From a virus, in the IMG/VR virus record IMGVR_UViG_3300010354_000070, positions 1 to 64,000 of that record: 64,000 nucleotides of DNA. One strand, written 5' to 3'. The notes below the pieces were generated by a model. The model was not told the DNA's origin and searched no databases. It saw only the letters and a list, made by a program, of their open reading frames with translations. Of this stretch, positions 2,748 through 23,445 are shown in pieces. Position 1 is the stretch's first letter. Each line of letters starts with the position of its first letter. A program made the position numbers and the translations under genes.

Positions 2748-2878
2748 TTTTCCTCCTTTTGTTTATGCGATAAATCTACTTTATAGTTCCAAAGTTTAAA
2801 ATATAAAGCACTATCTCCACCAAGTCTTAATGCACTTATAATTGTATCTAATTCTTTTTCGTTAATTGGCAATTCCAT
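2744..2878 (-). CDS. Small conserved-position protein between gp43 and uvsX
   Basis: A 44-residue open frame beginning MELPINEKELDTII. It is tightly packed: its ATG overlaps the polymerase stop (TAATG), its TGA overlaps the uvsX start (ATGA), and its last codons contain the AAGGAGG ribosome site of uvsX. This packing makes it very likely to be translated, and it may couple uvsX translation to gp43. The protein is mixed charged and hydrophobic, with a probable N-terminal helix and a LYFKLWNYKV strand, no signal peptide and no recognised domain. Function unknown. Confidence 0.75.
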   Translation of the reverse strand: MELPINEKELDTIISALRLGGDSALYFKLWNYKVDLSHKQKEEK

Positions 2879-5382
2879 TAATTAAAAAATAGGTCTAAAT
2901 TTACTGTTTTTTCTACACTCCACCCAAAAGTATCCAGAATTGATTTTAATGGTTCCAGAAAACCTTTATCAAATTGAGTATCATAATCTATGTATTTCTC
3001 CAGTCCAAGTTCTTTTGGAAAATCTTGAATAAAAGAAATTACATTTTCTTGTATAATGTTTGGTTTTTTTAAATAAAGATATTTAATCTTTTCTCCATTT
3101 TGTATAAGAGAATATTTTTTAGTGAGTTTTTTTTGCTTTATATAATAATTGAAAAGTAAAGACCCACGAATATGAATTGGAGTTCCTTTAGAATAAATTT
3201 GCTCGGAAGAATACTTCTTAACATCGGATGCTGTTCTTGGAAATGCTATCTGCTCTGGAGGTAATGTTTTAAACTCTTTTCTGCAATTAGATACGAAATC
3301 TATTATATCATCTTCAGTCCCTTTCATCAATAACTTCAGACCATCCTTAATCATTTTACGGCAAGGTGCTGGAGTAGAAGATTTAATTGCTTCAATACCC
3401 ATAATTTTGAGTTTTGGTTCTTCATAACGAACACCTTCACTATCCCATACATTCATAATATAACGCTTTTTGGCAGTCCATATCGCACGTTCTGCGATAT
3501 TTTCACGCTTCATATGCATCTTTTGTTCGTATGCATTTAAATATTCTGCTAATTCTTGATAGGAACTTTCAATATACTTTTCAAGTTCCATTGTGCATAC
3601 TTTGTCAAGAAAATTTACAATACTTTCAATATTTTTTTCTTTTCCTTTATATACAGTTTCAACCAAGGAACCCATATTAAGATAAACAGAATCTGTATCA
3701 GAAGCAATGACGTAATCTACTTCTTTTGTTTTAAGAATTTTATTCAGATATTGATTTAGTTTATTTTCAATCCATCGAATAGCAACTTGCCCTGAAAGAG
3801 TAATTGCTTCTGCGTTTGCCAATTTATAATAACGGAAGTATTGATTCCCAATCGCACCATAAGCAGAATTCAATTGAATTTTTCTTGCCATTTGGATATT
3901 ATTGCACCTGGCAATCTCTTTTTCTAATTCTTTAGTTTTTTTCTTTTCATATTCTTGCTTTGCTGCAAGCATCTTCTTTTTATAAATGGTGCGATCATTA
4001 TAAATCTTTTCCATCAATTCTGGTAAGAAACCACGAACATCCTTACGATACATAGCACCATTTGCACATATCGCATAATTTTTATACAGTTCAAATGAAA
4101 GATTTTGATTTAAAACTTTATCTACAGTAATTGTAGGATGTCTCTCATCCAAAAGAGTTTCTGGACTTATATTAAATTCCATAATCAAATGTGGATATAG
4201 AGAATTTAAGTCAAAATTAACCACCCAATCATACATTCCAGGAACTGGTTCCTTCACATAAGCACCAGCATACTTATCACTCTTTTCGGATTTTTCTTTT
4301 GGTGGAATTACAATATTTCTTTTTTTTAAATAATTGTAAATAATAGTATCCCACATACGAACTTGATAAAATACATCTTCATAATTCACTTTGGCGTCAT
4401 ATGCCATTGTAATAGCAAGTTCAATAAGTTTCATCTTGTCTTCTAATCGGTCAACAAGTTCTACGTCTTTTATGTTATAAGAAACGAACTTTTCCCATCC
4501 TTTTGTATAAAAATCTTTAAAGGTATCAAATTCAGAGTGATCTAATTTTTTTTGATTCAGTTCAACTTCGGCAATATAATCCAAACGATATGATTCTTGT
4601 GCTTTATAAGTAAATTTCTTATAAAGATCCAAGTAATCAAGTTGAGAAATACCCTTTATATCATATGAAATATGCTTACGCCCATTGATATAAACCTCAT
4701 TTTCTCGGATTAAACCCCATGGCGAAAGTTCTTTAGTTGCTTTTTCACCCAAAACTCTATAAAGACGACGGGCAAGGTAAGGAATATCATATAACTGAGA
4801 ATTCCATCCACTCACAACTTCTGGAGTATTTTCATCAGTCATCCACCAATGTATGAAACTATTCAGTAAGTCCCTCTCATTTGTAAATGCTTTATATGTT
4901 ACATTATTTTGTTTTGGTTTATATTCACCAAGTCCCCAAGTAATAATGTTTTTTGTAGTATAATCTTGAATTGTGATAAGTAAAATTTCTTCAGCAGCAG
5001 ATTCTACATCTGGAAATCCATTCTCAGATGCCACCTCAATATCTATTGTTATAAGTTTAATTTTACTAATATCAAATTTTATTTCATCTTCTGAGTATTT
5101 TTCAGAAATATACTGACAAACAAACCTTTCATTACCATAAATTTTAAAATTCTCTACACCATCATATTTTTTAATAAATTCTCTACAGTCACGAACAGAT
5201 CCTGGTTGAATTGCTTTTACATATTCTCCATTTAAAGTTTTATATTCAGTTTCAATATTTGATGGGACAAAAAAAGTTGGAGAAAACTTTTCTCGGGTCA
5301 TAAAATGTTTTCCATTTTCATAACCACGAACTAAAAAATAATCCCCAACAGATTGAACGTTTGTGTAGAAATTAAGTGGCAT
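2878..5382 (-). CDS. 43: DNA polymerase gp43, family B
   Basis: Replicative DNA polymerase with 3'-5' proofreading, 834 residues, near the usual size for T4-like cyanophages (T4: 898). Exonuclease motif I is DIEVAS at residues 114-119; polymerase motif A is DLNSLYPHL at 391-399; motif B is KIQLNSAYGAIGN at 501-513; motif C is SDTDS at 561-565, with the two catalytic Asp. All catalytic residues are present and the frame is uninterrupted, without an intein. The last residues, LDLFFN, fit the hydrophobic C-terminal tail that tethers gp43 to the gp45 clamp. The start overlaps the stop of the 88-codon gene upstream by one base; the promoter at 5968-5996 probably serves it. Confidence 0.97.
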   Translation of the reverse strand: MPLNFYTNVQSVGDYFLVRGYENGKHFMTREKFSPTFFVPSNIETEYKTLNGEYVKAIQPGSVRDCREFIKKYDGVENFKIYGNERFVCQYISEKYSEDEIKFDISKIKLITIDIEVASENGFPDVESAAEEILLITIQDYTTKNIITWGLGEYKPKQNNVTYKAFTNERDLLNSFIHWWMTDENTPEVVSGWNSQLYDIPYLARRLYRVLGEKATKELSPWGLIRENEVYINGRKHISYDIKGISQLDYLDLYKKFTYKAQESYRLDYIAEVELNQKKLDHSEFDTFKDFYTKGWEKFVSYNIKDVELVDRLEDKMKLIELAITMAYDAKVNYEDVFYQVRMWDTIIYNYLKKRNIVIPPKEKSEKSDKYAGAYVKEPVPGMYDWVVNFDLNSLYPHLIMEFNISPETLLDERHPTITVDKVLNQNLSFELYKNYAICANGAMYRKDVRGFLPELMEKIYNDRTIYKKKMLAAKQEYEKKKTKELEKEIARCNNIQMARKIQLNSAYGAIGNQYFRYYKLANAEAITLSGQVAIRWIENKLNQYLNKILKTKEVDYVIASDTDSVYLNMGSLVETVYKGKEKNIESIVNFLDKVCTMELEKYIESSYQELAEYLNAYEQKMHMKRENIAERAIWTAKKRYIMNVWDSEGVRYEEPKLKIMGIEAIKSSTPAPCRKMIKDGLKLLMKGTEDDIIDFVSNCRKEFKTLPPEQIAFPRTASDVKKYSSEQIYSKGTPIHIRGSLLFNYYIKQKKLTKKYSLIQNGEKIKYLYLKKPNIIQENVISFIQDFPKELGLEKYIDYDTQFDKGFLEPLKSILDTFGWSVEKTVNLDLFFN

Positions 5383-20664: not shown

Positions 20665-21138
20665 CTATTGAGACTTATAAAGGTCCTCAAGTTTTTTACG
20701 AGCATCTTTAACAGAAGAAATATAACCCATCTTAGAAGAAGGTTTTACTTTACCAGAGACAGAAGAACTAATAGCATCTATAATATCTTCATCATTACCA
20801 CAAATATAATTTTCATATATTGCTATAAGTTTATCATCTTTAGTTTCTGTCATTGTTATAATTTTATCCATACGAATAATAAAAATATCATCATTTGAAG
20901 TTTCAATCCAAGATTTTGCTTTTACAAACATACCTCTTTGATTGGTAATTATTTTCATTACTATTGGATTTTGGAGAATAACAATTGGGTCTCCATCATT
21001 TTCATCTGTCATAGATACAGCAAATATTTCTTCACCAGATACTAGTTTAATGACAGCATAGAACTCTTCACTAACAGGACTTTGTTTTTTAATTTCTTTT
21101 CGTTTTCTTTTAAAAATATTCTTAAGTAGTTTAATCAT
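20665..21138 (-). CDS. Beta-rich protein, third member of a small paralogous set
   Basis: A 157-residue protein of unknown function. A basic N-terminus (KRKRKEIKKQ) is followed by AVIKLVSGEEIFAVSMTD, VILQNPIVMKII, FVKAKSWIETSNDDIFII and IITMTE: the same strand-SGE, NP, aromatic-W, acidic turn, strand layout seen in the products at 5382-5648 and 5611-5946. The fold resembles a small Sm-like barrel, by inference only. The C-terminus has a Ser-rich linker and a helix. It overlaps the C-terminal uvsW fragment by eight bases, so it is co-transcribed with it. Confidence 0.65.
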   Translation of the reverse strand: MIKLLKNIFKRKRKEIKKQSPVSEEFYAVIKLVSGEEIFAVSMTDENDGDPIVILQNPIVMKIITNQRGMFVKAKSWIETSNDDIFIIRMDKIITMTETKDDKLIAIYENYICGNDEDIIDAISSSVSGKVKPSSKMGYISSVKDARKKLEDLYKSQ

Positions 21139-22027
21139 TTTTGATTGGTATATTTACTATATCGTAGTTAAAGTTTTCTTCATTATAAATTTTAATTCTT
21201 TCAATTAAGTGATTTAAGGTATAATTTTTTCTTGACTTGTAACTAATATCATCAGCAATGTCATATAATGTTGCTTTTGTTTTCTGATTACTTTTTCTTA
21301 GAACTCTTCCTATTGATTGTAAATTACGAACTCTAGATTTTGAAGGTGAAGCAAAAATAACATTATGTAAATTTTTAATATTAATGCCAGTGCTAAAAGT
21401 TCCATAAGACGCAACAATAATTGCGTCATTTTCTTTTTCTGTAATTTCTCTTACTTTTTCTCTATCATCAACATCCACTCCACCATGAATAAAGAATATT
21501 TTACGGTTCATAATATTATTACTTTTATTTATTAACTCATATAAAGGCTCTCCGTGTGTTTCTACACGATTAAAAAGAACTAGAGTGTTTCCTTTTAAAT
21601 CTAAACAAAGATTTTTTATGAAATTATTTCTTTTAGAATGATTAATCAAATATTGAATTTCATCCTCATATGTTTCAAATCTATTTGGTTGATGTTTGAG
21701 TAATAAAACTTTAATATCAAGAGTAGCAAGATGACCTTTTTTCATAAGTTCATCTGTGTTAATAATTTTATATGATGGTCCAAATAATCCTTCTAAAACC
21801 CATTTATGAGTTTGGGACCCATCAAGAGTTCCAGTAAATCCAAATCTATATTTTGCATTATCACATTTAGTCATTATAGATACTAAGGATTTACTTTTAA
21901 AAATGTGACATTCATCACCAACTATCACATTAAATCTGGAAAAGTATTGCTTGGGGAGTTTGTAAATGGACTGCCAAGTGCTGCAAATTACATTTGGTAT
22001 TTGGTGTTGTATTTTTCTAATTTTCAT
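21131..22027 (-). CDS. uvsW: UvsW helicase, C-terminal fragment
   Basis: Second part of the T4 UvsW superfamily-2 helicase, which remodels R-loops and recombination intermediates. It begins MKIRKIQHQIPNVICSTWQS, where the helicase sequence resumes, then shows motif II (VGDECHIF), motif III (GFTGTLDG), motif V (ASYGTFSTGINIKN) and motif VI (QSIGRVLRKS). Motifs I and Ia are missing because they are encoded in the separate fragment at 22693-23445. Together the two pieces cover the full protein with only a linker at the break. The start lies inside the HNH gene end (11-base overlap), so it is probably translated by coupling. No C-intein ending (His-Asn) is visible before the helicase residues. 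Confidence 0.9.
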   Translation of the reverse strand: MKIRKIQHQIPNVICSTWQSIYKLPKQYFSRFNVIVGDECHIFKSKSLVSIMTKCDNAKYRFGFTGTLDGSQTHKWVLEGLFGPSYKIINTDELMKKGHLATLDIKVLLLKHQPNRFETYEDEIQYLINHSKRNNFIKNLCLDLKGNTLVLFNRVETHGEPLYELINKSNNIMNRKIFFIHGGVDVDDREKVREITEKENDAIIVASYGTFSTGINIKNLHNVIFASPSKSRVRNLQSIGRVLRKSNQKTKATLYDIADDISYKSRKNYTLNHLIERIKIYNEENFNYDIVNIPIKND

Positions 22028-22736
22028 TTTTAATTTTTTTAATAATTGTATTTGATAATGGTCCTCTTTTTGGAATTTTCCCAGAAAGAATGTAATTGAA
22101 TGTAGATAAAGAACAATTAAGTACTTGGTCGCAAATTTGTTTTGTAGTCAAATCATTATCAATTGAAATCCAAGTATTACCAAAATCTAAACTATATTCG
22201 TACCTATACTTTTTACACAAATAATGATTTTTCCCACTTGTTTTTTCAACTTTTTTCTTAACAATGTTTTTATCTAGCATTGGATTATTTGTTACAAAAA
22301 TATTTGTTCCATTTTTTTCTCTATTTGATATGGTTTTTTCATGAATTGATTTATTTTTAAATGGGGAGTTTATTTTTGACCATTCTTTCAGTTCTTTAAT
22401 TCTTTTTTCTTGTAAAATTTGATATAATCTACTATTATAGTTAAAATTTGTTTTTATTGTTTTCATACTCATAGCATTAATAGCACAAAGCATTTTATAA
22501 TAATCTTGATTTTTGGTGAATTTTGTTAAACATAAATGACATATATAATGTTCTTTTGGCGTTAATTTTATAATATTTTCTTTTTCGTCACTTCCACCCA
22601 TTGATCTTGGTATTATATGGTGATTTTCTCCTTCAGAAATTGGCGAATTAATTCTATTGATTATTATATTTTTATACCAATTTAAATATTTGTTATTTTT
22701 TAATGGTTGATAACCATCTATCGTCAATTTCATCAT
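22017..22736 (-). CDS. HNH homing endonuclease inside split uvsW
   Basis: Homing endonuclease of 239 residues. The HNH nuclease signature is HHIIPRSMGGSDEKEN followed by LTPKEHYICHLCLTKF, giving the double His, central Asn and final His of the beta-beta-alpha metal site. An N-terminal NKYLNWYKNIIINRI helix precedes it, as usual in this phage family. The C-terminal TKQICDQVLNCSLSTFNYIL resembles a helix-turn-helix DNA-binding unit (NUMOD type), followed by a basic end. It is in the same direction as uvsW and overlaps both halves (44 and 11 bases). It is of the same family as the left-edge endonuclease. Likely cause of the uvsW fracture. Confidence 0.92.
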   Translation of the reverse strand: MMKLTIDGYQPLKNNKYLNWYKNIIINRINSPISEGENHHIIPRSMGGSDEKENIIKLTPKEHYICHLCLTKFTKNQDYYKMLCAINAMSMKTIKTNFNYNSRLYQILQEKRIKELKEWSKINSPFKNKSIHEKTISNREKNGTNIFVTNNPMLDKNIVKKKVEKTSGKNHYLCKKYRYEYSLDFGNTWISIDNDLTTKQICDQVLNCSLSTFNYILSGKIPKRGPLSNTIIKKIKNEN

Positions 22737-22848
22737 CTTCGTTCAATTCTCTTGCTAATTTTTTCTTGTTATTTATGAGATTTATAGTTTGATTGCCATC
22801 AAACTTATATTGATTGCCATCAACAGTAGTTACATAAACCGATATCGG
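22693..22848 (-). other. Hint-like extension of the uvsW N-fragment
   Basis: Residues 200-250 of the fragment: PISVYVTTVDGNQYKFDGNQ, then INLINNKKKLARELNEDDEI and a short end. The strand - D/G turn - strand - KKLARELNEDDEI layout resembles the block-B region of Hint (intein) domains, where a DD/DG hairpin is followed by a lysine-rich turn and 'ARDVKVGDYL'-like strand. But there is no Cys at the junction and no block A; a Ser at 202 is the only candidate nucleophile. It could be an intein remnant, part of a split intein, or unrelated sequence carried in with the endonuclease gene. Confidence 0.45.
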
Positions 22849-23445
22849 TTCTCTTTCCTTTCCACCATAAATTTTGTGGCAATATGAACCAACATCCCAA
22901 CCATAATCTAGAAAATCTTTATAAATTTGCTCTACGAGGGATGTCGTTGGCACAATTACGAGAATATTTTGTGACTTCTCAACGTAATACCTCACAATTC
23001 CATAAATCATCAGAGATTTACCCGAAGCAGTTGGAGATATTAATAATTTTCTATTATGTCTTAGAGCGTCGTATACTCCCTCAACTTGATATTCACGGGG
23101 AGTATGAGAACAAATAGAATTTAAATAATCCCTTACACCTTCTTTTGAGATATGTTCGTTAACTTCAAAAGGAAGACCATAATACTTATTATCACGAAAC
23201 TCATAAGTATAATCGTGATTTTTGCAAAAACTTATAACTTTATCTAAAAGACCGATATAAATTTCTTTTGTATTTACATTAAATAAGTAAATTACTCCAT
23301 CCCACCATTTGTTCTTATAGGCAGGAGAGAATTTAGCGTTTGGAACTTCAAATTGAAAAGCATCTCTTAACTCATAATAGATATGAGGTTCTGTTTCAAT
23401 TTGCAAATATACTTCATTCTTTTTTGATATAATCAAATGGGACAT
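22693..23445 (-). CDS. uvsW: UvsW helicase, N-terminal fragment with extension
   Basis: First part of UvsW, residues 1-199, matching the T4 protein from its small N-terminal domain through PREYQVEGV (Q motif-like), Walker A LISPTASGKS at 136-144 and motif Ia VIVPTTSLVEQ, up to KIYGGKERE. Residues 200-250 do not match UvsW and form an extension ending DDRWLSTIKK. The DECH motif and the rest are on a separate gene 666 bases further. No strong ribosome site precedes the ATG; a hairpin lies directly before it. The fragment binds neither DNA nor ATP productively on its own, so activity would need association or splicing with the second half. Confidence 0.9.
   Translation of the reverse strand: MSHLIISKKNEVYLQIETEPHIYYELRDAFQFEVPNAKFSPAYKNKWWDGVIYLFNVNTKEIYIGLLDKVISFCKNHDYTYEFRDNKYYGLPFEVNEHISKEGVRDYLNSICSHTPREYQVEGVYDALRHNRKLLISPTASGKSLMIYGIVRYYVEKSQNILVIVPTTSLVEQIYKDFLDYGWDVGSYCHKIYGGKEREPISVYVTTVDGNQYKFDGNQTINLINNKKKLARELNEDDEIDDRWLSTIKK

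Follow-up and report, generated by a model that had tools for sequence, protein, structure and literature searches.

In the viral DNA analysed here, bases 1-64000 of the 70.8-kb IMG/VR virus record IMGVR_UViG_3300010354_000070 (hereafter the window), a mobile element has probably fractured the helicase gene uvsW, and a non-splicing half of a Hedgehog/intein (Hint) domain, made up of a 51-residue tail on the N-terminal half (N-half) and an 11-residue head on the C-terminal half (C-half), probably staples the two helicase subunits together non-covalently. An HNH endonuclease gene is nested between the two halves, both of which are open and which together retain all core motifs. The anatomy of this locus, its conservation, the selection acting on it and its missing splice sites are matters of direct observation. 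We also lean, though only slightly, towards a broader proposition, namely that the half-Hint staples the halves for good and is portable, being bound neither to a single site nor to a single family of endonucleases, that it outlasts the endonuclease, and that it fixes a two-subunit enzyme.

Results

The three open reading frames (ORFs) of the locus lie on the minus strand, at 22693-23445 (250 aa), 22017-22736 (239 aa) and 21131-22027 (298 aa), and the HNH gene overlaps the N-half by 44 bases and the C-half by 11 bases. The N-half matched Pfam UvsW_N (1.6e-14) and ResIII/DEAD, the C-half matched Pfam Helicase_C (1e-9), and the PHROG annotation 'DNA helicase' was returned for both outer ORFs (1.5e-71 and 3.9e-102). 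When the halves were aligned with uncut UvsW references (S-SRM01, S-SKS1, P-SSM2 and others), their identities to the S-SRM01 protein were 79% for the N-half and 85% for the C-half. Homology to uncut UvsW stops in the N-half at ...CHKIYGGKERE, residue 199, and restarts in the C-half at about residue 13 (VICSTWQS), so that the insertion boundary could be placed, and only 4 residues (TDSQ in S-SRM01) are without counterpart. The loop to which they belong is variable, lies between motifs Ia and Ib and corresponds approximately, as counted on the alignment, to residues 195-205 of T4 UvsW (PDB 2OCA). The UvsW_N domain and superfamily 2 motifs I to VI were all found, spread over two chains, with motif I (SPTASGKS) and Ia in the N-half and Ib (STWQS), II (DECH), III (TGT) and IV-VI in the C-half; the number of motif residues missing across both halves is 0. 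Motif II reads DECH in the window and in two related contigs (L007 and L009), and also in T4 UvsW, and DEAH in the aligned uncut cyanophage proteins. The initial annotation of this DNA had described a uvsW gene split by a nested HNH gene with these same overlaps, broken in a linker between the motifs of the two fragments with no loss of helicase core residues, and with an N-half frame that stays open for 51 codons past the break; the coordinates, profile matches and alignment bear out each of these points. What that annotation had not recognised is that the 51 codons make up a conserved, portable domain with a counterpart in the 11-residue head of the C-half.

The same break in related genomes, which that annotation had proposed looking for, was found in IMG/VR searches that used the HNH protein and the 51-residue extension as queries. 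An identical break site is present in 16 further contigs (L007-L013, L060, L062, L064, L065, L146-L149 and L150), several of which end inside the locus (L012 and L013 cover the HNH and C side alone), and the tail, the HNH gene and the head are present wherever a contig reaches, although the HNH gene is disrupted in L150. The tail is shared by 14 other contigs at this site. These viruses are kin of cyanobacterial phages, and the identity of their helicase halves to those of the window drops to about 43% (N) and 51.5% (C). Their heads are of the type MKI(K/R)KIE(H)K.P, or LKILKIKENKP in L146-L149. Neither tail nor head has a counterpart in uncut UvsW, and both are conserved in fractured UvsW. 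No convincing match to the tail was obtained when several versions of it were compared by tblastn with 50,697 records of isolated phages, and genome_contigs gave no match. In the HNH proteins of the relatives the signature HHIIPRSMGG...EN...H is retained. The window HNH protein matched phrog_655 at 3.6e-34 and Pfam HNH at 9.9e-4, the latter under the family cut-off; because the relatives retain only the second Met of this ORF (MKLTIDG), translation of the HNH gene probably starts at 22733 and not at 22736.

Selection and mobility were assessed from pairwise Nei-Gojobori counts of nonsynonymous (pN) and synonymous (pS) differences per site. Outside the HNH overlap, the tail has a pN/pS of 0.15-0.41, which is similar to that of the helicase and HNH genes, and it is thus under purifying selection; the helicase halves have a pN/pS of 0.2-0.4 although their synonymous sites are near-saturated. 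When the element's bases were shuffled, 0.4% of the shuffles contained an open frame of 51 codons, and chance read-through as an explanation of the tail was ruled out by its conservation and pN/pS. Pairwise pS was near saturation in the N-half (0.67-0.81) and lower in the tail (0.35-0.62) and the HNH gene (0.44-0.57). Along the locus, in 20-codon bins with pairs pooled, pS fell from 0.73 to 0.53 just upstream of the break, then ranged over 0.44-0.49 within the tail and dropped to 0.17 in the overlap, where the very low value is in part due to double coding, and was 0.57 for the bin holding the head and 0.73 for the bin after it. The lower synonymous divergence of the tail and HNH gene relative to the helicase flanks argues that they are a single element, transferred among diverged uvsW genes as homing predicts, and the binned values suggest that the head probably belongs to the same moving element.

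Two natural variants separate the tail and head from the endonuclease and from the site. In contig L150 (IMGVR_UViG_3300013131_000090, 4119-4433), the HNH gene contains stops and has suffered an internal deletion, whereas both uvsW halves are open, the N-half keeping its tail and the C-half its head (MKIIKIEHKIP). The split, with its extensions, can thus persist after the endonuclease is lost. In contig L066 (IMGVR_UViG_3300045135_001660, 2789-5209), a uvsW-like gene is broken elsewhere, the interruption falling between motifs IV and V. A related tail is attached to its N-part and was found at E 1.6e-8 among 19,291 ORFs with a profile built without L066, and its C-part begins MKIKKIEERN. The gene between these halves is of another homing endonuclease family (phrog_314 at 7.5e-11) and does not overlap the tail. 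Since both the site and the endonuclease differ, the tail and head travel as a pair that is tied to neither one site nor one endonuclease.

By eye, the tail resembles the block-B half of an intein, and structure prediction points in the same direction. The tail alone was predicted at a mean predicted local distance difference test score (pLDDT) of 89 (13 sequences), while AlphaFold models of the whole N-half (six sequences) were poor (pLDDT 56), with T4 UvsW as the only clear structure match. Among the 31 listed PDB entries matching the predicted tail with a VIA-align Z of at least 2, 30 are inteins, Hedgehog or bacterial intein-like (BIL) domains, with a best Z of 5.2 and mostly 2-3 A root mean square deviation over 44-49 of the 51 residues. 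The tail aligns to residues 53-99 of the 101-residue N-terminal segment (IntN) of the Npu DnaE intein, that is, to the half adjoining the split site, and the match ends at residue 97-99, which is both the natural split and the position at which inteins carry an endonuclease insertion. Many matches in a viral structure library were annotated as Hint or intein proteins, or as phage enzymes that often bear inteins. Furthermore, a profile of tail plus head is collinear with five inteins over a stretch that opens with the strand preceding block B and closes with the first strand of the C-terminal segment (IntC), and none of 400 column permutations scored as high. In all 11 pairs compared, the tail core carries a net negative charge over its last 16 residues, and the head a net positive one. 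Together, the modelled fold of the tail, which covers half of the Hint fold, and the joint profile support a tentative assignment of the tail as the block-B half of IntN and of the head as the first strand of IntC.

The coordinates of these parts are collected in Table 1. In the window, the gene order is that of a T4-like cyanophage (gp23, tail tube, uvsY, uvsW, 'methylamine utilization', gp55, gp47), and no late-promoter box (TATAAATA) was found inside the locus.

Table 1. Parts of the fractured uvsW locus, in positions of the window
Part	Position	Strand	Basis
UvsW N-half, helicase part (residues 1-199, motifs I and Ia)	22849..23445	(-)	Homology to uncut UvsW
51-residue tail of N-half: predicted block-B half of Hint (intein) domain, without splice junction	22696..22848	(-)	Found in 14 other contigs, pN/pS, predicted fold
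HNH homing endonuclease gene, MobE-like (phrog_655), probable start 22733	22017..22736	(-)	PHROG and Pfam profiles, relatives
11-residue head of C-half (MKIRKIQHQIP), like the first strand of IntC	21995..22027	(-)	Kept in relatives, aligns to IntC start
UvsW C-half, helicase part (motifs Ib to VI)	21134..21994	(-)	Homology to uncut UvsW

Discussion

To persist in conserved genes, mobile endonuclease genes either splice out or insert alongside. The arrangement described here suggests a reusable third route, the gene in pieces, in which a reduced intein has kept its recognition half and lost its splicing half. A mobile element made of three parts, the tail, the HNH homing endonuclease gene and the head, would have broken uvsW at the surface loop between motifs Ia and Ib, and its tail and head would be the pieces of an intein that flank the endonuclease insertion point. 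In split inteins, an acidic segment of IntN meets a basic IntC in a process of capture and collapse (PMC11766414). From the charges of the tail and head, and from the precedent of a caged Npu IntN discussed below, we infer that the tail, by its acidic end, may pair with the basic head as split inteins do, forming a half-Hint that would bridge the broken surface loop and hold the two chains as a lasting two-subunit UvsW. The HNH endonuclease would cut uncut uvsW alleles of co-infecting phages, whereupon recombination would copy the whole cassette in. If so, this would show one way in which one-chain enzymes turn into two-subunit enzymes, and how far the Hint fold can shrink while still being conserved, and it would offer a compact natural heterodimerisation pair of about 60 residues.

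Several points weigh against this proposal. Searches of Pfam, NCBIfam, PHROGs and the PDB with the tail by sequence alone returned nothing significant and no inteins, and its model scored modestly (Z no higher than 5.2, Foldseek E values greater than 1), although a modest Z is expected of so small a domain. Of the five intein sequences used in the profile comparison, one, gp41-1, was verified. The structure predictions are of single chains, and the pairing of tail and head, like a complex of the halves, its helicase activity and homing, is what we infer. The portability of the pair comes from a single contig, L066. Finally, the initial annotation had named a second complete uvsW as evidence that would speak against a fracture; none is present in the 70.8-kb record, which is probably a genome fragment, and a full uvsW may lie elsewhere in the incomplete genome.

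That annotation had left three readings side by side, a two-subunit helicase, a trans-splicing pair and a broken gene on the way to loss, of which the first is the best supported. It may also be true in a simpler form, in which the subunits are held by their native interface alone, and the tail and head are tolerated by-products or serve only the translation or homing of the HNH gene. Split enzymes are able to assemble through a native interface, and the HNH gene, by overlapping the last tail codons and the first head codons, itself conserves part of both extensions. However, the first 37 tail codons lie outside the overlap and are nevertheless under purifying selection, L150 retains tail and head without a working HNH gene, and in L066 they accompany an unrelated gene, which lies downstream of the tail without overlapping it. 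We therefore regard this simpler form as unlikely.

Trans-splicing was right as to kinship, since the tail appears to be intein-derived, and wrong as to function, since every splice-junction element is missing. Intein splicing requires block A or a class 3 nucleophile, the Thr and His of block B, and a C-terminal Asn before Cys, Ser or Thr. At the main site, the tail starts at block B with Pro, and block A with its Cys1 is absent in every member. None of 13 members has a His where the Thr-x-x-His of block B would place one; the head is without block F, stopping after one strand; and the His-Asn of block G followed by Cys, Ser or Thr is absent in all members, in which the head ends in KEP or alike and the next residue is variable. 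Because block A, the Thr and His of block B, and blocks F and G are absent, canonical splicing is excluded and the uvsW halves are, as far as their sequences can tell, joined by no known intein chemistry; and because the splice junctions were tested and found absent, the element is not a canonical split intein of class 1-3. One could suppose, in view of the half-Hint fold, of the endonuclease at the intein position, and of helicase genes that in other phages, such as JA11, are fractured by canonical split inteins, that a divergent split intein still ligates the halves through protein trans-splicing. This is very improbable, however, given members without block A, the block-B His, the C-terminal Asn and a conserved +1 Cys, Ser or Thr; furthermore, the cysteine near the break belongs to the helicase sequence, and L065 and L148 lack it.

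Removal of the insert from the RNA by a group I or other self-splicing intron is just as improbable. Phage introns often house HNH genes, and the junctions are clean in the protein alignment. In contrast, the insert opens, at its 5' end, with a conserved reading frame continuous with the N-half, the C-half has its own conserved start codon, and Rfam covariance models gave no match in the window (E<=1) or in ten relatives (gathering score), in line with the earlier remark that no group I intron was apparent. The last reading, a broken gene on its way to loss, takes the interruption of uvsW at face value and is the least credible, because 16 other contigs share the break with all motifs intact and synteny kept, pN/pS is 0.2-0.4 in both halves with no frame-breaking mutations of the gene among the relatives' loci read, and both halves are still open in L150, where the endonuclease has decayed.

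Comparison with known systems

We found no published description of this arrangement; Dassa (2009), Friedrich (2007) and Crona (2011) are known to us through citing papers only. A gene in pieces is itself known, and the docking pair is of a new type. The closest parallel is NrdA of Aeromonas phage Aeh1, which is interrupted by mobE and works as a two-chain enzyme (Friedrich 2007 and Crona 2011, as cited in PMC2988022 and PMC3267527). As in Aeh1 (nrdA-A / mobE / nrdA-B), an HNH gene interrupts a conserved gene for a phage enzyme, which is then made as two chains, both halves carry element-derived extensions, and the endonuclease gene overlaps the second half. By its title, the study of Crona (2011) reportedly concerns mobile-element-derived interaction domains that assemble the Aeh1 NrdA halves. 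The two systems differ in the host gene, and the Aeh1 extensions have, by eye, no evident sequence likeness to the tail or head. Moreover, Aeh1 is one phage in which activity was shown, whereas the uvsW module occurs in many contigs and at two sites and is known from sequence. By eye, the start of Aeh1 NrdA-B (MIEHERIYEVYEDEEYTTVEIEV; L144, NC_005260 41489-42460) is somewhat like an IntC strand pair. Aeh1 nrdA showed that a gene can survive in pieces.

Genes fractured by split inteins, which Dassa (2009) is said to have described, form a second group. As that study is cited in PMC7090010, such fractured genes contain split inteins at their breaks. Two examples, which were found through structure matches, are treated as comparators and not as members, on account of their fuller intein parts. 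In Dickeya phage JA11 (L154, MH389777 128551-131657), a DNA repair helicase gene is in two parts, annotated merely as two helicase genes; its N-part has a complete-looking IntN with blocks A and B, and an endonuclease-like ORF lies between the parts on the opposite strand. In Campylobacter phage CP21 (L167, HE815464 33878-36740), phoH is in pieces around TnsA-like ORFs, with block A, block B and IntC pieces in separate ORFs, and the IntC starts MKVTKIEPIEY, similar to the head. In both, as in uvsW, Hint pieces stand at the break and an endonuclease gene occupies the position of the intein's endonuclease. Unlike uvsW, which keeps the block-B half and the first IntC strand, these genes have block A and a longer IntC, and their endonucleases are of other families.

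Other split core genes of T4-type phages, gene 60/39 of T4 (mobA) and gene 43 of Aeromonas phage 25 (PMC2988022), also yield two functional chains and adjoin homing endonuclease genes, but no intein-derived docking pair has been described there. For the docking itself, the nearest likeness is an engineered one, the caged split inteins, in which residues 51-102 of Npu DnaE IntN are locked onto IntC in a non-splicing binding state (PMC11766414). This is nearly the same segment as that matched by the tail (53-99), although the caged intein is a laboratory construct with a nearly full-length IntC, whereas the natural head has 11 residues.
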